43,013 bases of DNA from Desulfocapsa sulfexigens (lineage in GTDB: Bacteria > Desulfobacterota > Desulfobulbia > Desulfobulbales > Desulfocapsaceae). The notes beneath the pieces are model-generated. The model worked only from the letters and a program-made list of their open reading frames with translations, made no database searches and was not told where the DNA came from. The translations under genes were made by a program, and so were the position numbers. This document shows, piece after piece, positions 1-24,230 of the stretch. The DNA lies in the NCBI GenBank assembly GCA_015662865.1, contig DQTH01000024.1, forward strand, positions 1-43,013. The letters are read 5' to 3'. How positions within the stretch are numbered: the stretch's first letter is position 1; each line of letters begins with the position of its first letter.

Positions 1-291
1 CAGAAAGTGAAAGGCTTTTCACGTTAATATGTCATTATTTTAATTGGTTGGCTATGTTTTCTATTGTGTTTTGGTCAACCCCGAAACTTGAGTTTATTAT
101 AAATAGGTTGAATACCAAAATTGGGCGATTATAATAACCATTATCCAGGGCTCGCACGGCAGTTAAAATGATTGGCGTAATGTTTCGTTTTAATCATTTT
201 TGCTGCTGTTGCTGGGGCCCTTCTGTTGTTTGTTTATACAATAATGGGAACTCCGCACGAGTGGTGAATTATGTCTCGTGGAAGATAAAAA

Positions 292-3030
292 ATGAATGAG
301 GATCTTATGACCCCACATGACCAGGTACACTCCAGCAGTAGCAAAACAGACTGGCACTCAGGTTCAACAACCTTTACAAAAATCTCTGGAGTGCTGCTCC
401 TCAGTCTCATTTTTATGTTTCCAGCAGCGGCATGGAGCAGTGAAAATCTTGTACCTATTTATCAGTTGTTACTCTCCTCTTCCAATGACCAACCGAAAAG
501 AATTTTTATATTAGGCTCTTCCACTGTACATGCAGCGTGGTTTCGCAGTGCTTCTTTTAATGATCCCTATGGCGACAACAGGGTACTTGAAGGGTGGGGC
601 GAACAACTTGATAAATATATGAAAGATCCCAGTAAGGTATATAACAGGGCCCGTTCAGGTTCTGACTCTGTTTCGTACAGAAGCCCAGATAACAACAGGC
701 CGGGAACTGTTGATAGACACTGGGCCAATACAGAAGCTTTAATCAACGCAACTGCCGACGGAAACGGCGGGTTTATCCTGATTCAGTTTGGTGCCAACGA
801 CTCCCATCCACTGGTTGCTGGCGGGCCTCCTCGCGTGAGTGTTGAAGATTTTGAAAATGAATTAAGAACCTATGTCGATGATGCCAGAATACTTGGCCTC
901 ACCCCTGTACTTGTCAGCCCTCCAGGGGCCAGAAGCCATGGAGTAAATACAAGGCCTTATGCTCAATACATAGAACCAATAGCGATTGAAAAGGATGCTT
1001 TGTTTATCGACCTTTACGAGAAGAGCAAAACGCAGTGGCTCACTTATGATGCGGATGGTAATGGGGATCTTCCGGAAGCAGATAAACTGTTCAGTTATGT
1101 GCAACGCCACTCCGGTATTAATAATACCCATTATGGCCGAATAGGAGCAAAGATTGTTTCAGGATGGTTCAGAGAGCTTGCATGTGGAACATTTGATGAT
1201 AGAAGCCAGGCAGTACAAACTGCAGCAGCACAGTTATGTGAGCAATTTGTTCAGGGGGAATTGGAACATGATATTACCATGCGTGAAGATGCAGAAGATG
1301 GTGACACTGCTCATTGGGAGACCTATGACACCACAGATGGCTCGACTGTGACGAATGTGTATGATGCCACAAAGCGCAGTAATGTGATAGTGCTGCAGGG
1401 AAATGATGGCCTTGCCAATGGTTTTAGATATGACAACAGTAATCCCTGGGGAGAGACACTAAAACGTGTTGTCTCATGGCAGATGCAATACAGCGAGGAT
1501 TTTACCTTTTTTGTAGCTGTAGATACTGAGGACGGATACAAAACATTTGAGTATCAGCCTACAAGTAATCCGGGAGAAATTACAGCTTCCGGGCGTTACA
1601 ATTTTGGTTTAGGAACTGATGCCAATGACGGTACATGGCATACCTTTACCCGTGACTTACAGGCGGATTTACAATTTTTAGCGCCTGGCAAACATATTCT
1701 TGAGATACATAGAATCGCCATTCGTGGTTCTGGTAGAGTTGATAACATACGAACAATGAGCAGCATAGATACTGTGAGTCGTGACATTGCACCAACAGTG
1801 GCTGTAGTGGGTGAAGCCGAAATTACCATCACTAAAGATTCGGATTATGCTGATCAGGGTGTAACCGTTGTTGATGACAAGGATGGCGATATCGTTACAC
1901 AGCTTGAAATCATCGGTTTGGTGGATGCCGGCACGGTGGGGACATATACAATACATTACAAGGTACATGACAGTGCAGGCAACGGTGGCTATGCCACGCG
2001 TACTGTACACGTTGTGGAGGCCGGTGCCGAGACGGTAGTTGTCCATGAGGATGCAGAGGATGGAGACACGCAGGGATGGAATACTTATGCAACAACAGAA
2101 GGTTCTACCGTAACAAATGTTGAGGATAACGGTAATCGTGTCATCCGCTTGCAAGGCAACAATGGATTGAATAATGGATTTAGTTTCACTAATTTGAATA
2201 TCGACTCTGGCTTTGTTGTTTCGTGGAGATTGAATTATAGTGAAGCTTTTAGATTTTTCGTCCAGGTCAACACGGCCGATACCGATGGTCTTGTGTACAT
2301 GGAATATACACCGGACAATATAAGTACAGGACTGAATAATAATTTTATTCATCATGGCCTGGGGACAGATGCCATGGATGGAACATGGCATACATACACA
2401 AGAGACATAGAAGCTGATCTTAATGTTATCTATCCCAATGATCATATAACCCGAATAGTCGGCTTTTCCATCAGAGGTTCAGGCTTGATAGATGATATCA
2501 GTACATCAACCAGAGCCGCGCGGGAAACCTTCTCCTACAACGGGCATACTTACACAATCGTCAAAACTGCCCTCTCCTGGCAGGATGCCCGGATTGCAGC
2601 AAATGAAGATGGCGGCGGATATCTGGCCAATATCAGCAGTATCGCGGAAAACCATGAGATATATTCACGGCTCTATAGATATATCACCCAGGGTGAATAT
2701 CCCAATACCGTTGCATCAAATGGCGGGAACGCATCGTATGTCTGGATAGGTGGCAATGATCTTGAGATTGAGGGTACCTGGAGGTGGCAGAACAACAATA
2801 GCCATTTTTGGACGGGAACCCAGGGGGGCAACGCAGAGGGAGGATTATTTAGCAACTGGGGGCGAAATACCAATGAGGTGCAAAGTGAACCTGACGATAC
2901 CGATGGGCAGGACGCCGCAGGCATCGCTCTTACCCGTTGGCCAATTAATTCAGGTAGCTTGGGACAAGCCTCCCAGTGGAATGATTTAATTGCTGAGGAT
3001 ATGCTTTATTATATTGTTGAGCATGATTAG
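292..3030 (+). CDS. Secreted SGNH/GDSL hydrolase with duplicated beta modules, Ig-like domain and C-type lectin domain
   Basis: A 912-residue exported multidomain protein. Residues 31-50 form a hydrophobic signal segment after a long polar N-terminus; an in-frame ATG at 307 behind GAGGA would shorten that leader and is a plausible alternative start. Residues ~68-295 resemble rhamnogalacturonan-acetylesterase-type SGNH hydrolases: nucleophile Ser77 in ILGSST, block-II Gly123, block-III GAND at 167-170 and block-V His280. Two copies of a ~160-residue module follow (~331-490 and ~585-745, both opening EDAEDGDT and holding a DGTWHT/TRD motif). A DUF5011/HYR-like Ig domain lies between them (~500-577). 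The C-terminus (~755-912) looks like a C-type lectin fold (SWQDAR, WIGGND, WND). The likely role is carbohydrate binding with deacetylation of an extracellular polysaccharide, which is inference. The block-V acidic residue appears to be Asn277 instead of Asp. No operon partner is visible. Confidence 0.8.
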   Translation: MNEDLMTPHDQVHSSSSKTDWHSGSTTFTKISGVLLLSLIFMFPAAAWSSENLVPIYQLLLSSSNDQPKRIFILGSSTVHAAWFRSASFNDPYGDNRVLEGWGEQLDKYMKDPSKVYNRARSGSDSVSYRSPDNNRPGTVDRHWANTEALINATADGNGGFILIQFGANDSHPLVAGGPPRVSVEDFENELRTYVDDARILGLTPVLVSPPGARSHGVNTRPYAQYIEPIAIEKDALFIDLYEKSKTQWLTYDADGNGDLPEADKLFSYVQRHSGINNTHYGRIGAKIVSGWFRELACGTFDDRSQAVQTAAAQLCEQFVQGELEHDITMREDAEDGDTAHWETYDTTDGSTVTNVYDATKRSNVIVLQGNDGLANGFRYDNSNPWGETLKRVVSWQMQYSEDFTFFVAVDTEDGYKTFEYQPTSNPGEITASGRYNFGLGTDANDGTWHTFTRDLQADLQFLAPGKHILEIHRIAIRGSGRVDNIRTMSSIDTVSRDIAPTVAVVGEAEITITKDSDYADQGVTVVDDKDGDIVTQLEIIGLVDAGTVGTYTIHYKVHDSAGNGGYATRTVHVVEAGAETVVVHEDAEDGDTQGWNTYATTEGSTVTNVEDNGNRVIRLQGNNGLNNGFSFTNLNIDSGFVVSWRLNYSEAFRFFVQVNTADTDGLVYMEYTPDNISTGLNNNFIHHGLGTDAMDGTWHTYTRDIEADLNVIYPNDHITRIVGFSIRGSGLIDDISTSTRAARETFSYNGHTYTIVKTALSWQDARIAANEDGGGYLANISSIAENHEIYSRLYRYITQGEYPNTVASNGGNASYVWIGGNDLEIEGTWRWQNNNSHFWTGTQGGNAEGGLFSNWGRNTNEVQSEPDDTDGQDAAGIALTRWPINSGSLGQASQWNDLIAEDMLYYIVEHD

Positions 3031-3301
3031 AAGGTGTCAACACAATCGATTTGAGTGGCTCCCTTCCTTTTGCTATCAGTCAGGGGCGTTAAAAATGGTT
3101 GTTGGAAGAGAAAAACCTGCTTAATGCAAAGAATCTGAAAGTAATTGGCGAATGCTGGTATTCTGTTGTTATATTTTCGGTATATTCACGGACTCTTGAT
3201 AGGTTGCAACAGAATATGGGCTTTTGGAATACTTTCGTGATTACTGGTGGTCGGGATTGTGACTCGGTAACAGAATATTATTTAGTGTGTCAGTTCAATA
3301 A
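3031..3301. other. Intergenic stretch with a 10-bp inverted repeat
   Basis: No convincing gene is seen here in any frame. A perfect 10-bp inverted repeat (TATTCTGTTG at 3159-3168 and CAACAGAATA at 3207-3216) brackets 38 bases. No T-tract follows, so a terminator is not supported. Confidence 0.4.
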
Positions 3302-3632
3302 TCAGGAGAAAGAGAGCAATTGTTTACGCTGGGCCGGAGAGAGTTTACCAAACTGAACTCCGATTTTTTTTGTAGACCATTCCTGATATAGTGGAAAAAG
3401 AGACATCTTTATTCCAGATAATTTTTCAAGGTATCTGTCTTGCGTCAATACGCCTCTCGTTGCACAGGAGATCAAGGGAAAATTCTCCTGTTATGTCAGT
3501 GATAGCACCATCCAGTATAATCAGGGATAGGCCTCCCCTGCTGATGTCAACGACCTTGCCTATCTTGCCGCAGGCAAGGGCTCGGGTTCCGTCAGGTGCT
3601 TGGAATCTCTTATGTTTCCTTTGCTCTAACAT
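3302..3632 (-). pseudogene. PilZ-domain (c-di-GMP binding) protein, broken by a stop codon and a frameshift
   Basis: The intact 5' part encodes 68 residues with the PilZ hallmarks: RKHKR near the N-terminus and DISRGG (DxSxxG type) about 25 residues later. These are the c-di-GMP-contacting motifs of the family. The frame then meets TGA at 3426-3428. Reading through it gives KIIWN, matching the usual PilZ strand with Trp, and a Gly codon changed by one base (GGA to TGA) would fit the stop. Further on, an A8 run (plus-strand T8 at 3364-3371) puts the last part in another frame. Dropping one A gives KKIGVQFGKLSPAQRKQLL, the typical PilZ C-terminus, ending at TGA 3302-3304. The repaired protein would be 109 residues, normal for a single-domain PilZ protein. 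Two independent lesions make this a decayed gene. Selenocysteine at the TGA is unlikely given the second lesion. Confidence 0.75.
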
Positions 3633-7575: not shown

Positions 7576-9501
7576 ATGGGAAAGATTATTGGAATAGATT
7601 TAGGAACCACAAATTCATGTGTGGCTGTAATGGAAGGTGGGGATCCCACCGTTATTGCCAATGTGGAGGGCAACCGTACCACGCCTTCCATCGTTGCGTT
7701 TGCAGACAATAATGAACGTCTGGTTGGACAGGTTGCAAAGCGTCAGGCTGTAACCAACCCGGAACGTACACTGTATGCCATCAAACGTCTTATCGGTCGT
7801 AATTTTAAAGATGCCGAGGTACAGAAATCAGTTGAGATCAGCCCCTTTAAGATTGTCGAAGGGAAGGGTGGAAGTGCTGCCATCGAAGTTGAGGGCAAGA
7901 GCTATACCCCGGCTGAGATTTCAGCTATGATTCTTGGCAAAATGAAGCAGACTGCTGAAGAGTATCTCGGTGAGGAAGTGACTGATGCAGTTGTTACCGT
8001 GCCTGCATATTTCAATGATGCCCAGCGTCAGGCCACTAAAGATGCCGGAAAGATCGCCGGACTCAATGTTCAGCGTATCATCAACGAGCCAACTGCAGCA
8101 TCTCTTGCCTATGGACTGGACAAAAAAGGTGAAGAGAAAATCGCTGTTTTTGATCTTGGTGGTGGTACTTTTGATGTTTCCATCCTTGAGATTGGTGATG
8201 GTGTTTTTGAGGTGAAATCCACCAATGGTGATACGTTCCTTGGTGGTGAAGATTTTGATATGCGCATCGTTAACTGGCTCTCTGACGAGTTCAAACGTGA
8301 GCAGGGTATTGATCTTCGTAATGATAAAATGGCTCTTCAGCGTCTGAAAGAAGAGGGTGAAAAGGCCAAAATGGAGCTTTCCACCACCACAGAAACTGAG
8401 ATTAACCTGCCATTTATTACAGCAGACGCGTCCGGTCCCAAACATCTTAATATCAAACTGACCCGTGCCAAATATGAGGCGCTGGTGGATGATCTGGTAG
8501 ATCGAACTGTTGGTCCCTGTAAGACAGCACTGAAAGATGCCGGACTTTCCGCGTCAGATATCGATGAGGTGATTCTTGTCGGTGGAATGAGCAGGATGCC
8601 CAAGGTTCAGGAAAAAGTAAAAGAGATTTTTGGCAAGGAACCCCATAAAGGCGTGAATCCTGATGAAGTTGTGGCCATTGGTGCAGCCATTCAGGGTGGT
8701 GTCCTTCAGGGTGATGTGAAAGATGTCCTGTTGCTTGATGTTACACCGCTGTCACTTGGTATTGAAACACTTGGTGGTGTGACCACAAAACTGATTGAGA
8801 AGAATACAACAGTGCCAACCAAAAAGGGCCAGATCTTTTCAACAGCCGCGGATAACCAGCCTGCAGTTTCCATTCACGTACTCCAGGGTGAGCGTGAAAT
8901 GGCACAGGATAATAAAACAATCGGTCGCTTTGAGCTGACTGATATTCCACCTTCGCCACGCGGTGTTCCGCAGATTGAGGTCTCCTTTGACCTTGATGCC
9001 AATGGTATTCTTAATGTTTCTGCCAAGGACCTTGGAACAAACAAGGAACAGTCCATCCGCATCACTGCCTCTTCCGGTTTGTCCGAGGAAGAGATTGAGA
9101 AGATGAAACAGGATGCCGAGGAGCATGCTGAGGAAGATAAGAAACGTAAAGAACTGGTGGATGCCCGCAATAATGCTGATGGCTTGATGCACGCCTCCCA
9201 GAAATCGCTGAAAGACCTTGGTGATAAAGTGGATGCTGAGACCAAAGGCAATGTGGAAAAAGAAATCGAGAATGTGAAAAAAGCGGTTGAAGGTGACGAT
9301 ACTGCTGCCATTAACACTGCCATTGAAGCACTGACCAAGGCCTCACATAAGCTTGCTGAACTCATGTATGCCCAGGCTTCTCAGGAAGGACCTGAGGGTG
9401 CAGCGGAAGCTGGTGCAGCCGGTGCTGGAGAGGCGCCTCAGGACGACGACGATGTTGTTGATGCGGACTTTGAAGAAGTAAAAGATGACGACAAAAAGTA
9501 A
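7576..9501 (+). CDS. dnaK: Chaperone DnaK (Hsp70)
   Basis: A full-length 641-residue Hsp70. The N-terminal ATPase domain opens with [15 protein letters not shown] and carries [32 protein letters not shown] and [13 protein letters not shown]. The substrate-binding domain follows ([14 protein letters not shown]), then a helical lid and an acidic tail ending in [12 protein letters not shown]. It acts in the cytosol with GrpE, encoded just upstream. An AAGGAGA ribosome site precedes the ATG. A strong intrinsic terminator follows about 45 bases after the stop. Confidence 0.98.
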
Positions 9502-9544
9502 TTTCGTCAGCTGATCATCTGTCTGCAGTAACAGACAGGAAGTG

Positions 9545-9584
9545 AAAAGGGGAATCCGATGAATTTCGGATTCCCCTTTTTTTT
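9545..9584 (+). terminator. Rho-independent terminator of dnaK
   Basis: A perfect 15-bp stem (AAAAGGGGAATCCGA, 9545-9559, paired with 9566-9580) closes a 6-base loop. Its right arm runs into a T8 tract (9577-9584). Confidence 0.92.
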
Positions 9585-9618
9585 CGTTTTGACCTGGAGT
9601 AGTATGGCTTGCGAATTG

Positions 9619-9806
9619 TGATGGGTCCGTAAAAACTCTCCATCTTCTTCGTTGCTACTAAAAAACAAATCATTGCAACGTACTTGAGTACGCTGCAATG
9701 ATTTGTTTTTTAGCACCCAAGGGCATAAACGCGTCTCGAATATGAAGTTTTTTACGAATCCATCAATCGTAACCATCTTAAATTTTAACTTTTTACGGGT
9801 CTATCA
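9619..9806. repeat. Palindromic repeat element, long form, with a 27-bp internal hairpin
   Basis: A 188-bp non-coding element has imperfect 17-bp terminal inverted repeats (TGATGGGTCCGTAAAAA at 9619-9635; complement at 9790-9806, three mismatches). Inside, 9658-9684 and 9687-9713 form a 27-bp hairpin arm pair with one mismatch and a TG loop. A second inverted copy of the end sequence lies at 9748-9765. The ends match the short element at 25661-25713. The extra internal part is flanked by CCATCTT (9640-9646 and 9773-9779), as if a ~126-bp piece had inserted into a short element. Confidence 0.75.
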
Positions 9807-9838
9807 CTTATAAACAGCAAACCTATATATTTATTATT

Positions 9839-10804
9839 ATGAAAATCTTATCAGGTATCCAGCCCTCAGGCCAACTGCACATCGGTAATTATTTCGGAAT
9901 GATGAAAACCATGATCGCCAACATGGAAAAATCCGATCTCTATGTTTTTATCGTTAATCTTCATGCGCTGACATCTGTCCATGACAAAGAGAAACTTGCC
10001 ACAGGCACACTTGAGGCTGCTGCTGATTTTCTGGCCCTTGGTCTGGATCCTGAGAAATGTACTTTCTGGGTACAATCTGATGTCCCGGAAGTGTGTGAAC
10101 TGGCGTGGATTCTTTCCACTCTCGCTCCCATGGGGCTCATGGAGCGCTGCCATTCCTACAAGGACAAGGTGGCCAAAGGCATTGATGCAAGCCATGGCCT
10201 GTTTTCCTATCCTGTACTTATGGCAGCTGACATTCTTCTCTACCAGGCAGACCAGGTTCCGGTTGGCAAGGATCAGAAACAGCATCTGGAAGTGGCCAGA
10301 GATCTTGCCCAGAAGTTTAACAATACCTTTGGTGAAACTTTTGTGGTGCCAGAGCCTGCCATAAGTAACACTACGGCAACGGTTCCTGGCCTTGACGGAC
10401 AGAAAATGTCTAAATCATACGGCAATACCATTCCCATCTTTCTGGAAGGAAAGAAACTGAAGAAAAAGGTGATGGCCATTGCCACTGATGCAACACCCGT
10501 TGAAGACCCCAAAGATCCCGACAATTGCAATCTGTACGCCATGTTTAAACTCTTTGCTTCTCCTGAAAGACTTCAGGAGGTAAGAGACTTATATGTCAAT
10601 GGCGGGGCAGCTTACGGTTATATAAAATTGGAACTGCTTGATCTGATCAGTGATTATTATGCTGATGCTCGGCAGAAAAAAGCTGAATATCTGGCCGATC
10701 CTGAGATGCTTCGAGCCATTTTGCGAAAGGGTGCAGACCGGGCACGGGAGAAAGCCGCTGTGACCCTTGATCTGGTGCGTGAACGAGTGGGCTTGAAGTA
10801 TTAA
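9839..10804 (+). CDS. trpS: Tryptophanyl-tRNA synthetase
   Basis: A class I aminoacyl-tRNA synthetase that charges tRNA-Trp in the cytosol. The 321-residue length is typical of bacterial TrpRS. The HIGH-type motif is HIGN at residues 14-17 after GIQPSGQL, and the KMSKS loop is GQKMSKSYGNTI near residue 189. The DQVPVGKDQKQHLE segment for Trp/ATP binding is also present. It stands alone between the palindromic element and a hairpin shared with the convergent PPIase gene. The ribosome site is weak. Confidence 0.97.
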   Translation: MKILSGIQPSGQLHIGNYFGMMKTMIANMEKSDLYVFIVNLHALTSVHDKEKLATGTLEAAADFLALGLDPEKCTFWVQSDVPEVCELAWILSTLAPMGLMERCHSYKDKVAKGIDASHGLFSYPVLMAADILLYQADQVPVGKDQKQHLEVARDLAQKFNNTFGETFVVPEPAISNTTATVPGLDGQKMSKSYGNTIPIFLEGKKLKKKVMAIATDATPVEDPKDPDNCNLYAMFKLFASPERLQEVRDLYVNGGAAYGYIKLELLDLISDYYADARQKKAEYLADPEMLRAILRKGADRAREKAAVTLDLVRERVGLKY

Positions 10805-12208: not shown

Positions 12209-13330
12209 ATGAAAGCATTGATTGCCCTGGAAGATGGAACCATATTTGAGGGTCGCTCGTTTACCGGATCCGGTGAGGCTGTCGGTGAGATCGTCTTCAA
12301 CACCTCAATGAGCGGATATCAGGAAATTCTCACCGATCCTTCCTATACCGGCCAGATTGTTACCATGACCTACCCGTTGATTGGGAATTACGGCACAAAT
12401 ACAGCGGATATGGAGTCAGCTTCAATTCATCCGAGAGCTTTTTTAGTTAAAGAGTACAATCAGTTTCCTTCCAACTACCGATCTGAGAAGCCCCTTGCTG
12501 AATTTTTGAAGGAATACAATGTGCTCGGGATTGAGGGTTTTGATACCCGTGCCCTTGTAAGACATATCCGTACAAAAGGAGCCATGAAAGGTATTGTCTC
12601 CACTGAAGACCTTGATCATGAATCACTGGTAAAACGTGCCAGTGAATGGACCGGACTTGTGGGCCAGGACATGGTGAGCAGAGTAACATGCAATGAGCCT
12701 TATGGATGGGCAGATAACAGTGTGGTTCCCGGTACTGATTTTTCCACAAGCCAGCCTGGTCTGGACAATCCTCTGAAGATTGTGGCCTTTGATTTTGGTT
12801 TGAAATATAATCAGTGCCGGATTCTTACTGAAAAGGGCTGTCAGGTTCAGGTTGTTCCAGCCTCTACAGATGCCGAAACAGTACTTGCCATGAACCCCGA
12901 TGGTATCTTTCTTTCCAATGGCCCGGGCGATCCTGAAGGGGTTCCTGATGTTGTAAATACCATTAGGGCATTGCTTGGCAAAAAACCCATGTTCGGCATT
13001 TGTCTTGGCCATCAGCTTCTTGGTCTTGCCTATGGCGGATCGACCTTCAAACTAAAATTTGGTCACCGGGGTGGAAATCAGCCGGTGAAGGATCTCCTGA
13101 CTGGAAAGGTGGAGATTACCTCACAGAACCATGGCTTTTGTGTGGATATGGATAGTCTGAACCCGGATGAAGTGGAACTCACTCATATTAATCTGAATGA
13201 TGATTCTGTTGAGGGAATGCGTCATAAGAAATACCCGGCCTTCTCTGTTCAATATCATCCGGAGCATGCACCGGGCCCCCATGACGCCATGTACCTTTTT
13301 GACCGTTTTATTGATATGATACGAAAATAG
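12209..13330 (+). CDS. carA: Carbamoyl-phosphate synthase small subunit (glutaminase)
   Basis: CarA hydrolyses glutamine and channels ammonia to CarB to make carbamoyl phosphate for pyrimidines and arginine. The 373-residue protein has the N-terminal CPSase domain (LEDGTIFEGRSFTG, TYPLIGNYG) and a class I glutamine amidotransferase domain with the triad Cys265 (GICLGHQLLG), His350 and Glu352 (QYHPEHAPGP). It is followed by carB after 43 bases in the same direction. Confidence 0.97.
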   Translation: MKALIALEDGTIFEGRSFTGSGEAVGEIVFNTSMSGYQEILTDPSYTGQIVTMTYPLIGNYGTNTADMESASIHPRAFLVKEYNQFPSNYRSEKPLAEFLKEYNVLGIEGFDTRALVRHIRTKGAMKGIVSTEDLDHESLVKRASEWTGLVGQDMVSRVTCNEPYGWADNSVVPGTDFSTSQPGLDNPLKIVAFDFGLKYNQCRILTEKGCQVQVVPASTDAETVLAMNPDGIFLSNGPGDPEGVPDVVNTIRALLGKKPMFGICLGHQLLGLAYGGSTFKLKFGHRGGNQPVKDLLTGKVEITSQNHGFCVDMDSLNPDEVELTHINLNDDSVEGMRHKKYPAFSVQYHPEHAPGPHDAMYLFDRFIDMIRK

Positions 13331-13373: not shown

Positions 13374-16300
13374 ATGCCAAAACGAACAGATATAAAAAAG
13401 ATTCTTATCATAGGTTCTGGCCCCATTATTATCAGTCAGGCCTGTGAGTTTGATTATTCAGGCGCTCAGGCCGTTAAGGCCCTGAAGGAAGAGGGCTACG
13501 AGGTTGTGCTCATAAACTCCAATCCGGCCACCATCATGACAGATCCGGAGCTAGCTGATTTTACCTATATCGAGCCCATAACTCCTGAAATGGTGATCAA
13601 GGTTATTGCAAAGGAGCGCCCGGATGCTCTGCTGCCGACCCTTGGTGGCCAGACAGCGCTTAATACGGCCATAAAGGTGGCAGAGGCCGGGGCACTTAAA
13701 AGATATAATGTGGAGATGCTTGCCGCAAATATCGATGTTATTAAAAAGGCAGAAGGCAGGGAAGAGTTTAAAGCTGCCATGGAAGCCATTGGCCTGAATG
13801 TGCCCAAGTCTTACATTGTTCATACGCTGGAAGATGCCGTGAAAGCAGGGGATGATATCGGATTTCCGATTATTGTACGTCCTAGTTTCACACTCGGTGG
13901 CACTGGTGGCGGTGTTGCCTACAACCGTCAGGAGCTGAAAGAACTGTCTTCCTCCGGTCTTGATCTTTCCATGACCACAGAAGTCATGCTTGAACGCAGT
14001 CTGCTTGGCTGGAAGGAATACGAGCTTGAGCTGATGCGTGATTCCAAGGACAATGTTGTTGTCATCTGCTCCATTGAAAACATTGATGCCATGGGAGTGC
14101 ATACCGGCGATTCAATAACTGTTGCACCTGCCCAGACACTCACCGACCGTGAGTACCAGGATATGCGTGATGCCGCAATTGCTATTATTCGTGAGATTGG
14201 TGTGGAAACCGGGGGATCAAATGTGCAGTTTGCTGTGAATCCGGAAGACGGGGAACTCATGGTGATTGAAATGAACCCCAGGGTTTCCAGAAGCTCGGCT
14301 CTGGCCTCCAAGGCAACGGGCTTTCCCATTGCCAAGATTGCAGCAAAACTGGCCGTTGGCTTCACACTCGATGAAATAAAAAATGATATCACCAGGGAAA
14401 CATACGCCTCCTTTGAACCAACCATTGACTATTGTGTGGTGAAAATTCCCCGCTGGACTTTTGAAAAGTTCCCTGAAGCAGAAGACGTTCTGACAACTGC
14501 CATGAAGTCTGTGGGTGAGACCATGGCCATGGGACGAACATTCAAAGAGGCCTTTCAAAAAGGTATGCGGTCCCTTGAAACCGGAAGATTCGGTTTTGGT
14601 GGTGACGGCAAGGAAGAACTCATGCATCTGGACCCGGAAGATCTGGAAACCGGACTGCGTAAACCAAGCTCTAAACGACTCTGTTTTATTTATGAAGCCT
14701 TAAAACGGGAGATGCCCATCGATGAACTCTTTGAGCTGACCCAGATTGATCCATGGTTTCTTTATAACTTCAAGCAGATTGTTGAAAAAGAGAATATCAT
14801 TCGCGAGCAGGGTTTTCAGGGACTGACACCGAAATTCCTTCGCAGTTGCAAAGAATACGGTTTTTCCGACTATCAGCTTGCCTTTCTCACCGGAACATCA
14901 GCTAAAGATGTTCGTGATTTACGGAAAAAACTGAATGTTGTGCCGGTTTACAAACTTGTTGATACCTGTGCGGCTGAATTTGAGTCCTACACACCCTATT
15001 ATTATTCCAGCTACGAACAGGAAAATGAGGCATCCGCCACTGGCAATAAGAAAATTATCATCCTGGGCGGCGGGCCCAATCGTATCGGCCAGGGTATTGA
15101 ATTTGATTACTGTTGCGTTCATGCCTCTTTTGCCCTTGCTGAAATCGGAGTGGAATCCATCATGGTGAATTCCAATCCCGAAACTGTTTCAACAGATTAT
15201 GATACTTCAGATAAACTCTATTTTGAGCCGTTGACCCTTGAGGATGTTCTGAGCATCATTGACCTTGAAAAACCGGATGGTGTCATAGTCCAGTTTGGCG
15301 GGCAGACTCCTCTAAACCTTGCAGTTGCCCTTGAAGAAGAGGGGGTTACCATTGTCGGTACTCCTCCTGACTCCATTGACCGCGCAGAGGATCGGAAGCG
15401 TTTTCAGCAATTCCTGCAGAAACTGGGTCTTCGTCAGCCGGAAAATGATACAGTTTACACTTTGGAAGAGGCCCTTTCCGTAGCCAAGAGAATCGGATAT
15501 CCGGTTGTGGTTCGTCCTTCTTATGTGCTGGGTGGCCGCGACATGCGTATTGTGTACAATGATGCCGAGATTAGGGATTTTATGGCCATCCCCGGTATTG
15601 CAGGAGCAGATCATCCGGTACTGATTGATAAGTTTTTGAAGGATGCCATTGAGGTGGATGTGGATGCGCTGTGTGATGGTCAAAATACGATCATCGGCGG
15701 GATCATGCAGCACATTGAAGAGGCTGGGATTCATTCCGGCGATTCCGCCTGTGTGTTACCGCCTCACACTCTCTCTCCAGAATTGATTGAAGAAATTAAA
15801 CGTGCCAGCAGAGCCATGGCTGAGGAGCTTGGCGTCATAGGGCTTATGAATGTGCAGTATGCAGTAAAGGATGAGGATCTTTATATCCTGGAGGTCAATC
15901 CCCGCGCGTCAAGAACAGTGCCTTTTGTCTCAAAGGCAACGGGCGTCCCCCTGGCTAAAATGGCAACAAAGATCATGATGGGTAAAACACTAGCTGAGCT
16001 TGGGGTGACAAAGGAAGTAGAGATTAATCACTGGGCAGTGAAAGAGGCCGTCTTTCCCTTTGATCGTTTTGATAATGTGGATACCCTCCTCGGTCCTGAA
16101 ATGAAATCCACTGGTGAAGTCATGGGGATCGATGATAATCTCGGTCTTGCTCTTGCCAAGGGACAACTAGCTGCCGGATCTGCTATCCCTAAGTCAGGAA
16201 CAGTTTTTATCAGTGTGCGGGACAGTGACAAGCAGGCGATCCTTGGGCTTGCAGAAAGTCTTGTGGAAATGGATTTTGATATCATTGCTACCCGCGGCAC

Positions 16301-20771: not shown

Positions 20772-23609
20772 ATGGCCCGGGAACGTTATACAGCTTTTGT
20801 CGAGGCCATTTCTTCTGTAATTCCCGAAGAGCAAATCTTTACCGATACACTTCGCTGCCTGGCCCATGGTACCGATGGTGGATTTTATCGCCTGGAACCA
20901 AAAGTTGTGGTGCGGGTACTTACTGAAGAGGAGATGATTCGCTGTTTGCAGGAAGCACATTCTCGCGGCTTACCTGTGACATTTAAGGCTGCCGGTACAT
21001 CGCTCTCTGGTCAAACAATTTCCGATTCCATCCTGCTCATGGCAAGTGAAGGCTGGGAAAGGTATGACGTGCTGGAAAACGGCGCTAAAATTCGCTTACA
21101 GCCTGGCATAATCGGTTCACGGGTAAATACGATTCTTGCACCTTACGGCCGAAAATTCGGGCCTGATCCTGCCTCCATAAATTCCGCCATGGTGGGCGGC
21201 ATCATCATAAACAATGGCAGTGGGATGAACTGTGGGACACACGCAAATTCTTACAAAACCATTGTATCAGCCAGGATTGTTTTTGCTGATGGTACACTGC
21301 TTGACACCGGAAATACGAAAAGCCGGAATAATTTCAGGAAACAGCGACCAGAGTTTATAAGGAAAATTGAAAAATTTCGTGATCAGGTACGGAGAGACAC
21401 AGCGTTCGCAGCACGCATTCGCAAAAAATATTCAATCAAGAATACAACCGGATTCTCCATCAATTCTTTCATCGATTACGATGATCCTTTTCATATCATT
21501 TTAAATCTGCTTGTTGGCTCAGAAGGTACCCTTGCCTTTATTTCCGAAGTTGTGATGCGTTCGGTGAAAAGTCATTCGTGCAAGGCCAGTTCAATGGTCT
21601 ATTTCCCTGATATCAATACAGCCTGTGAGGCTGTGGTTGCCCTGAAAGACGGCCCTGTTGAAGGTGCTGAACTCCTTGATCGCGGTGCTCTTAGAGCTGT
21701 TGAAAACATGGATGGTATCCCTTCTTTTATTAAGGACTTTGATGAAACAACCACAGCTGTTTTGCTGGAAAGCATGGCTGCAGATCCGGTAGCTCTCGAA
21801 AAGAATATCAAAGAAATCACAACAACACTAAATAGCTTTGCAACGATTCTGCCGGTGGAGTTTACCTCTGATCCCCAAAAGTACGAAAAACTCTGGAATA
21901 TCCGCAAAGGGGTTTTCCCTGCGGTTGGCGGCATGCGAGATATTGGCACTACCTGTCTCATTGAAGATGTGGCTTATCATATGGAAACACTGCCTGCAGC
22001 AACCAAAGAATTGCAGGAAATTATTGCCAGACACGGCTATCAGGAAAGCGTGATTTATGGCCACGCCCTTGAAGGAAATTTTCATTTTATTATCAATCAG
22101 GATTTTTCCGATCCTGCGGAAGTTGCGCGTTACGATGAGATGATGCATGATGTCGTAGCTATGACTGTCGACAAGTACGATGGATCGCTCAAAGCAGAAC
22201 ACGGTACCGGCAGAAACATGGCTCCTTTTGTGAAAAAAGAGTGGGGTGAAAAAGGCTATGGACTCATGCAGGAAATCAAACAGCTTTTTGATCCTGATGG
22301 AATTTTAAATCCCGGGGTCATTATCAATGATGATCCTCAGTGCCACCTGAAAAATCTTAAACCTCTGCCAAAATGTGATCCTCTGGTGGATAAGTGTATT
22401 GAATGCGGTTTCTGTGAGGTTGGCTGTGTTTCCAATGGGTTCAGCCTGTCAGCCCGCCAGCGCATAGTGATTCAGCGTGAAATAGCTCGCCTTACAGAAA
22501 CCGGGGAAGATCCGGGCAGGAAAATGGAGCTTGAAAGAGATTTTATTTTTTTGGGAGTTGAAACCTGTGCAGCAGATGGGCTTTGTGCAACCTCCTGCCC
22601 GGTGGGAATTGACACCGGGAAGTATATTAAACAGATTCGCGGCCGACAGCTCAGCCACGCAGGAATGAAGCTCGGACAGTGGGCAGCCAATCACCTGGAA
22701 GCAGTTACCACCACTGCTTCCTTTATGCTTGATGCGGTAAACATCGGCCATGGCCTGCTCGGTACCCATGCGTTTGGACGACTGAGTAATCTGGCACGAT
22801 CGCTCAGCATTGGACGCCTTCCTGAATGGACTCCTGCAATGCCAAAAGGGGCAACGGTTTCAGGGCTGATCAGTAGAAACAGTGATACGGCTGATAAAGT
22901 TGTGTATTTCCCTTCCTGCATCGCAAGAACTATGGGGCCAGGAAGGGACGATCCTGTGACGGAATCCATCCCTGAAGTCACAGTGAGGCTGTTTGAAAAA
23001 GCAGGATACGAAGTCATTTTTCCAGAGGCGATGAAAAAACTTTGTTGCGGGACTCCCTGGGAGTCAAAGGGTTTTGCGGATATTGCTGATCAGAAATCAG
23101 CAGAACTTGAACATGCTCTTCTTGCAGCTTCTAATAACGGAAAATATCCGGTTCTCTGTGATACTTCGCCCTGTTTGTATCGCATGCGAAAGGTGATGAC
23201 TGAAAAGTTGAAACTCTTTGAACCGGTGGAATTTGTCCACACCTTTCTTGTTGATCGATTACAGTTCAGGAAAAAGAAAAATATTGTCGCCGTGCACCCT
23301 ACCTGTTCCACCAGAAAAATGGGTCTTGCCGAACTTCTTGAAGATGTAGCAGGCATGTGTGCGAAAAAAGTCGTGGTACCACAGGATCTCAACTGTTGCG
23401 GCTTTGCAGGGGACAAAGGCTTTACTCTGCCGGATCTCAACCGGCACGGTTTGCGTAAGTCTATACCTATGGTGCAGCAGAGTGGGGCAGAGGCGGGTTA
23501 TTCAAACAGCCGTACCTGTGAAATTGGCTGCGCGTCTCACACTGGAATCCCTTATATGTCCATCATGTATCTGGTGGATGAAGTCAGTCAGCCAAAGGAA
23601 GAAATATAA
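20772..23609 (+). CDS. dld: FAD-binding/iron-sulfur D-lactate dehydrogenase (GlcD-GlcF type fusion)
   Basis: This 945-residue enzyme probably oxidises D-lactate (or another 2-hydroxyacid) to pyruvate and passes electrons through iron-sulfur clusters to the membrane pool. Residues ~40-270 form a PCMH-type FAD domain (FKAAGTSLSGQTIS, GGIIINNGSGMNCG), then a GlcD-like C-terminal FAD domain with VIYGHALEGNFHF and EHGTGRNMAPFVK. Two 4Fe-4S motifs sit near 541-550 (CIECGFCEVGC) and ~597-608 (CAADGLCATSCPVG). Two CCG-type segments end the protein (LCCGTPWESKG, LNCCGFAGDKG). A GGAG ribosome site precedes the ATG. Just downstream lies a ruined lutA-lutC remnant, showing that the locus once held more lactate genes. 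Glycolate as substrate cannot be excluded. Confidence 0.88.
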   Translation: MARERYTAFVEAISSVIPEEQIFTDTLRCLAHGTDGGFYRLEPKVVVRVLTEEEMIRCLQEAHSRGLPVTFKAAGTSLSGQTISDSILLMASEGWERYDVLENGAKIRLQPGIIGSRVNTILAPYGRKFGPDPASINSAMVGGIIINNGSGMNCGTHANSYKTIVSARIVFADGTLLDTGNTKSRNNFRKQRPEFIRKIEKFRDQVRRDTAFAARIRKKYSIKNTTGFSINSFIDYDDPFHIILNLLVGSEGTLAFISEVVMRSVKSHSCKASSMVYFPDINTACEAVVALKDGPVEGAELLDRGALRAVENMDGIPSFIKDFDETTTAVLLESMAADPVALEKNIKEITTTLNSFATILPVEFTSDPQKYEKLWNIRKGVFPAVGGMRDIGTTCLIEDVAYHMETLPAATKELQEIIARHGYQESVIYGHALEGNFHFIINQDFSDPAEVARYDEMMHDVVAMTVDKYDGSLKAEHGTGRNMAPFVKKEWGEKGYGLMQEIKQLFDPDGILNPGVIINDDPQCHLKNLKPLPKCDPLVDKCIECGFCEVGCVSNGFSLSARQRIVIQREIARLTETGEDPGRKMELERDFIFLGVETCAADGLCATSCPVGIDTGKYIKQIRGRQLSHAGMKLGQWAANHLEAVTTTASFMLDAVNIGHGLLGTHAFGRLSNLARSLSIGRLPEWTPAMPKGATVSGLISRNSDTADKVVYFPSCIARTMGPGRDDPVTESIPEVTVRLFEKAGYEVIFPEAMKKLCCGTPWESKGFADIADQKSAELEHALLAASNNGKYPVLCDTSPCLYRMRKVMTEKLKLFEPVEFVHTFLVDRLQFRKKKNIVAVHPTCSTRKMGLAELLEDVAGMCAKKVVVPQDLNCCGFAGDKGFTLPDLNRHGLRKSIPMVQQSGAEAGYSNSRTCEIGCASHTGIPYMSIMYLVDEVSQPKEEI

Positions 23610-23626: not shown

Positions 23627-23709
23627 ATGACGTATTGTGTATCCTTTTTTTTCACCTGCCTTGCAGATACGGTTTTTCCAAATATCTCCATACAGTCTGT
23701 TAAGCTGCT
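23627..23709 (+). pseudogene. lutA: lutA remnant (5' end of the lactate-utilisation Fe-S protein)
   Basis: A ribosome site (CGGAG) and ATG open a frame reading MTYCVSFFFTCLADTV followed by FPNISIQSVKLL. This is the start of LutA/YkgE-type CCG-domain proteins (pattern FFxTCLxDxxFP...SVxLLExLGC). Similarity stops at about codon 28; the frame then runs on to a stop at 23755 with unrelated residues. The CCG domains are missing. It follows dld by 17 bases on the same strand, so it was the next gene of a dld-lut operon. The join to lutC sequence at about 23704-23710 marks a deletion. Confidence 0.72.
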
Positions 23710-23933
23710 GGTCGTTCAGTTTCTCTGCTGCCCATCTATTCCATTACTGTGGTAAAGGCATGTGACCTGCGCTCCCGGCTTACTCAAGGGATGGAGTTTC
23801 TGCAAAATCTGCAAGCTCCCCTGCCACCATTCATTAACTTTGTCTCCGGTGCCAGTTCCACGCTGATATTGAACTGGTACATGTGAAAGGTGTGCATGGT
23901 CCCCTGAGAATAGCCTATGGTATAGTTTTTTAA
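23710..23933 (+). pseudogene. lutC: lutC remnant (3' end of LUD-domain protein) with a one-base frameshift
   Basis: From 23710 another frame reads GRSVSLLPIYSITVVKA, DLRSRLTQGMEFL, PPFINFVSGASST. Then, after losing one base near 23857-23863, it reads ADIELVHVKGVHGPL up to TAA at 23931. This is the C-terminal end of LutC/YkgG (LUD domain), where SGxSxTADIExxxVxGVHGP is the hallmark. About 75 codons remain of the usual ~200-240. The N-terminus is gone, along with all of lutB and most of lutA, so a deletion of a few kilobases fused lutA to lutC. Neither piece can make a working protein. Confidence 0.75.
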
Positions 23934-23996: not shown

Positions 23997-24230
23997 ATGC
24001 CCCATATTATCGTTAAATTATATCCTGGAAGATCGGAGGAACAGAAGACACAACTCGCTGCCGAGATAGTCAGAAATGTTGTTGGAATTGCGAAGTGTGA
24101 GGAAAAAGTTGTTTCTGTGGCCTTTGAGGAGGTCGACCAAGAGGCATGGCCGGAAAAGGTGTACAGGCCTGAAATCATGGATAAGAAAGAAAACCTTTAC
24201 GTGAAACCTGGCTATAATCCGTTTAAATAA
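23997..24230 (+). CDS. 4-oxalocrotonate tautomerase-family protein (PptA-like)
   Basis: A 77-residue small tautomerase. Met is followed by Pro, the N-terminal catalytic base after Met removal (MPHIIVKLYPGRSEEQK). The beta-alpha-beta pattern and a conserved EEVDQEAWPEKVY segment fit the PptA/YdcE subgroup. The ATG has a strong AGAGGAG site. The physiological substrate is unknown. It lies just after the lut remnant, and a PNPOx-like gene follows after 43 bases. Confidence 0.85.
   Translation: MPHIIVKLYPGRSEEQKTQLAAEIVRNVVGIAKCEEKVVSVAFEEVDQEAWPEKVYRPEIMDKKENLYVKPGYNPFK

Follow-up and report, generated by a model that had tools for sequence, protein, structure and literature searches.

The window (the whole 43,013-nucleotide stretch of Desulfocapsa sulfexigens DNA analysed here) carries an intact lactate dehydrogenase gene, dld, which is followed by two ends of a lactate-utilization operon. 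The 390 bases between the stop of dld (23609) and a tautomerase gene (23997) had been read, from the letters alone, as the start of lutA joined to the end of lutC, and both forward-frame translation and tblastn agree with this, three coding pieces being found in three frames. The features are as follows.

20772..23609, + strand: dld, intact FAD/4Fe-4S lactate dehydrogenase of Dld-II architecture, 945 amino acids (Pfam domains, identity to L067, tree, dN/dS)
23627..23710, + strand: lutA 5' stump, codons 1-28, with start codon and upstream GGAG retained (75-82% amino-acid identity to LutA, tblastn E 1e-8)
23710..23711, + strand: deletion junction, GG common to both sides (pairwise alignment to L067 DNA on either side)
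23710..23933, + strand: lutC 3' stump, last 74 codons and stop, in a different frame from the lutA stump (LUD_dom, tblastn)
23860..23861, + strand: one-base deletion, ACC to AC, after which the lutC stump continues in frame 2 instead of frame 3 (alignment with L067 lutC; tblastn pieces meet at 23862)
23997-24230: tautomerase-family protein, 77 amino acids, PF01361, between the scar and yaaA
24274-24804: protein of 176 amino acids, likewise between scar and yaaA; PNPOx_N match weak and under the cut-off

The LutA start is seen in frame 1, where translation from 23627 gives MTYCVSFFFTCLADTVFPNISIQSVKLL. Part of the LutC end is read in frame 3 from 23710 as GRSVSLLPIYSITVVKACDLRSRLTQGMEFLQNLQAPLPPFINFVSGASST, which includes GRSVSLLPIYSITVV...FVSGASST, and the remainder in frame 2 from 23862 as ADIELVHVKGVHGPLRIAYGIVF, closed by a stop, so that the LutC stump comprises 23710-23862 plus 23862-23930. 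Using intact relatives as tblastn queries, LutA residues 5-28 were placed at 23639-23710 (92% identity, 46 bits), LutC residues 154-205 at 23707-23862 (81% identity) and LutC residues 206-227 at 23862-23927 (77%), with E 2e-25 for the LutC match. The LutA stump is 75-82% identical in amino acids to the intact LutA of G010, G181 and L067 (tblastn E 1e-8), and the LutC stump is 77-81% identical to the LutC of L067, whereas the top scores from 1000 shuffles of the region were only 22.7 and 23.5 bits. The sizes predicted earlier, about 27 LutA codons and about 75 LutC codons with a one-base frameshift, are thus close to the 28 and 74 found, the frameshift being the one-base deletion at 23860-23861.

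Profile searches, which had been proposed for both pieces, succeeded for one of them. The LutC piece, taken across the frameshift, matches Pfam LUD_dom PF02589 with E 3.6e-10 and 40 bits (cut-off 22.6 bits) over profile positions 115-186 of 189. No Pfam or NCBIfam profile matched the LutA stump, its 28 residues being too short and retaining no complete CCG domain; the assignment of this piece as a putative LutA start rests on alignment and synteny. Sequence of lutB is absent from both the window and the genome according to profile and tblastn searches. Since no lutB lies between lutA and lutC, the locus was classed as a LutABC/LldEFG remnant and not as a working LutABC system.

Deletion junction and intact relatives

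The most informative relative is L067 (Desulfobulbaceae MAG S015_9, contig WFRY01000415.1), in which lctP-dld-lutA-lutB-lutC are contiguous and in the same direction (lctP 8308-9987, dld from 10001, lutA at 12856, lutB at 13599, lutC to 15685). LutB of L067 scores above the TIGR00273 cut-off, CCG is present in its LutA and LUD in its LutC. A tree of 18 dld proteins joins the window dld and that of L067 as sisters (support 97/96), the L067 Dld being the closest relative of the window Dld at 76% identity. An intact lutABC thus stands behind dld in L067, as the sequence-only reading had anticipated for relatives, and dld-lutA-lutB is present up to the contig end in G181 (L059/L068).

Alignment of the DNA with both sides of L067 shows that the lutA side tracks L067 as far as ...AAGCTGCTGG, the lutC side does so starting at GG(T)CG..., and the GG at 23710-23711 fits either. 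The junction, previously put near 23704-23710, is thus found at 23710/23711, on the margin of that range. In terms of L067, whose dld is 76% identical to that of the window, about 2525 bp are missing (L067 12939-15464), namely lutA from codon 29 on, all of lutB and two thirds of lutC (to about codon 154). A direct repeat, CTGCTG at 23705-23710 and 23725-23730, had also been pointed out; it is real, and it was considered as the deletion mechanism and rejected, because recombination between two copies leaves one, yet both survive here, each aligning to its own gene (the first as KLL of lutA, the second as SLLP of lutC).

That the operon was lost in a single deletion, as first proposed, is consistent with the intact order in L067 and with a remnant that consists of the two ends only. 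Several successive deletions could have given the same stump, and the second lesion, the one-base frameshift, represents decay beyond the one deletion; however, on either side the match to intact genes runs right up to one common GG, the stumps have no leftover of lutB or of the lutA interior between them, and one event is the simpler account. We regard successive deletions as improbable, though they are the most credible of the alternatives.

The timing of the loss can be approached through substitution rates. Alignment of the stump with L067 over 100 codons gives 81% identity, dN 0.12, dS 1.16 and dN/dS of about 0.10; for the intact dld against L067, the values are dN 0.15, dS 1.50 and the same dN/dS of about 0.10. 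Because the stump ratio is low and equal to that of dld, the stump still bears the imprint of purifying selection, and its function was lost recently relative to the split from L067.

A point against the scar reading is that lutA and lutB follow dld in only two of the eight related Desulfobulbales dld loci scanned, no lut remnants having been detected at E 0.1 behind the other six dld genes. The scar has no copy among 92 other family genomes, in which a relative with the same short intact gene would have spoken against a remnant; the better matches in this search were short and fell on lut genes (G010, G206) or in other places (G211, G212). In the same-genus genome G010 (L015, G010:C302:1-4508), lutA and the first part of lutB come directly after lctP without an intervening dld. 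This arrangement is the complement of the dld without lut seen in the window, and the short contig could be contamination. LUD genes occur in three of the 20 genus genomes searched (the window's own genome counted in the 20), as a LutC and LdhH pair, which adjoins ackA in G003, where its location was checked; at G003:C7 (L002), 3-3453, a second ackA precedes lutC and the gene for a large subunit of fused LdhH type, which together make up another kind of lactate oxidation set. In Desulfofustis sp. PB-SRB1 (L099, 399-3232), dld matches fall in three overlapping pieces, which suggests that this dld is frameshifted or misassembled.

Gene neighbourhood and remaining lactate genes

Membership of ackA in the lactate operon was rejected, since two genomes of the same genus (G001 and G016) keep the order ftsH-folP-ackA-yaaA, with yaaA directly after ackA and neither dld or lut genes nor a tautomerase or PNPOx-like gene. 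On this synteny, ackA is an old neighbour, and the dld-lut block would have been either inserted in the window lineage or lost in G001 and G016. The tautomerase and PNPOx-like genes are likewise both absent at the matching place in those two genomes. Foreign composition was considered for dld and the remnant and rejected: with GC of 0.45-0.47 against 0.454 for the window, there is no compositional sign of recent foreign origin.

The upstream gene encodes a single chain bearing FAD_binding_4, FAD-oxidase_C, Fer4_8 (4Fe-4S) and CCG domains, a Pfam set by which it can be assigned to the Dld-II type. Searches of the genome (a 3.5 Mb draft assembly of 307 contigs, 98.8% complete) revealed no LUD domain elsewhere, no LctP-type lactate permease (Lactate_perm) and no LarA-type lactate racemase. 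No FMN_dh match above cut-off indicated an FMN L-lactate dehydrogenase, one partial match being below it; the sole Ldh_1_N protein is malate dehydrogenase. Other CCG-domain proteins are present in the genome, and none of the families tested supplies a replacement for LutABC.

These searches also bear on the possibility that a short-read assembler or a binning error fused lutA to lutC while the true genome has the full operon. The 307 contigs of the draft would allow for such an artefact, and the base missing from a CC pair could reflect a sequencing error. However, lutB or most of lutC, if misjoined away, would be expected on another contig of this 98.8% complete genome, where no LUD or lactate permease match was found; joins at a 2 bp overlap are rare for assemblers, and two independent defects are present. 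An artefact is thus very unlikely. Least credible of all is that the fused 42-codon frame from 23627 encodes a functional small protein: it keeps the start codon of lutA together with GGAG upstream and is open to 23755, but the final 14 of its codons are an out-of-frame reading of lutC, and it has neither a family match (Pfam, NCBIfam) nor a second copy among the 92 other family genomes.

Interpretation and comparison with known systems

We are highly confident that a dld-lutABC operon once stood here and left this scar, LutABC having been lost, probably in a single deletion, and the Dld-II enzyme kept. In the ancestor, lutA, lutB and lutC would have stood behind dld, with all four genes placed between ackA and the genes downstream of it. 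About 2.5 kb, from lutA codon 29 to about lutC codon 154, would then have been cut out by a single illegitimate recombination at the 2 bp GG match. What remained of lutA, its start signals and 28 codons, would thereby have been joined out of frame to the final 74 codons of lutC, and a separate one-base deletion also struck this second stump. The iron-sulfur LutABC complex for L-lactate oxidation is therefore gone, with the Dld-II type enzyme left intact.

The physiological consequence is less certain. It had been proposed that the lineage lost L-lactate oxidation while keeping the D-lactate enzyme and AckA; the lack of another LUD gene is in line with the loss, whereas AckA does not belong to the operon, and D-lactate is a likely substrate of the remaining enzyme only by analogy with its family. 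Since a Campylobacter jejuni Dld-II orthologue acts on L-lactate (PMC4117512), we only infer the loss of L-lactate oxidation, and with it lost growth on L-lactate and retained D-lactate oxidation, in the window lineage; the stereospecificity of the Dld-II type is disputed, so this outcome is likely rather than proven. An adaptive stereochemical specialization, in which L-lactate oxidation was dropped and oxidation of the D-isomer or another 2-hydroxy acid kept via Dld-II, perhaps with a shift to other electron donors, is a speculative extension that we consider doubtful; such a shift is conceivable because the LctP-type permease is also missing.

The gene loss itself is recent, clear and ordinary, breaking no rule and requiring no new mechanism. 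It offers a snapshot of operon decay in a lactate-using group, with direct access to the junction, the size and the relative age of the loss, and for annotators it means that an intact dld in such genomes does not imply growth on L-lactate.

LutABC/LldEFG has been tied by genetics to L-lactate use in Propionibacterium (PMC12285252) and to lactate use in Helicobacter (PMC4117512). Dld-II is paired with LldEFG in Shewanella oneidensis (Pinchuk et al., 2009, as cited in PMC4117512 and PMC4481167), and L067 likewise combines Dld-II, an LldEFG/LutABC set and a lactate permease. Compared with the Shewanella set, the window retains Dld-II, with lutA and lutC stumps, but has lost lutB and the greater part of lutA and lutC, and LctP was not found in the genome. 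The organic acid oxidation region of Desulfovibrio vulgaris (PMC4481167) also belongs to a sulfur-metabolizing host and has Dld-II and LUD-domain L-lactate genes near ackA; however, that operon is intact and also has por, pta, ack and lldG/lldH, whereas ackA of the window belongs to the ftsH-folP-ackA-yaaA neighbourhood. In Propionibacterium freudenreichii, lutABC function has likewise been lost in lutB mutants, which were tested and are unable to use L-lactate (PMC12285252); the lesion there is a revertible single-base change in lutB, whereas in the window most of the operon has been deleted.
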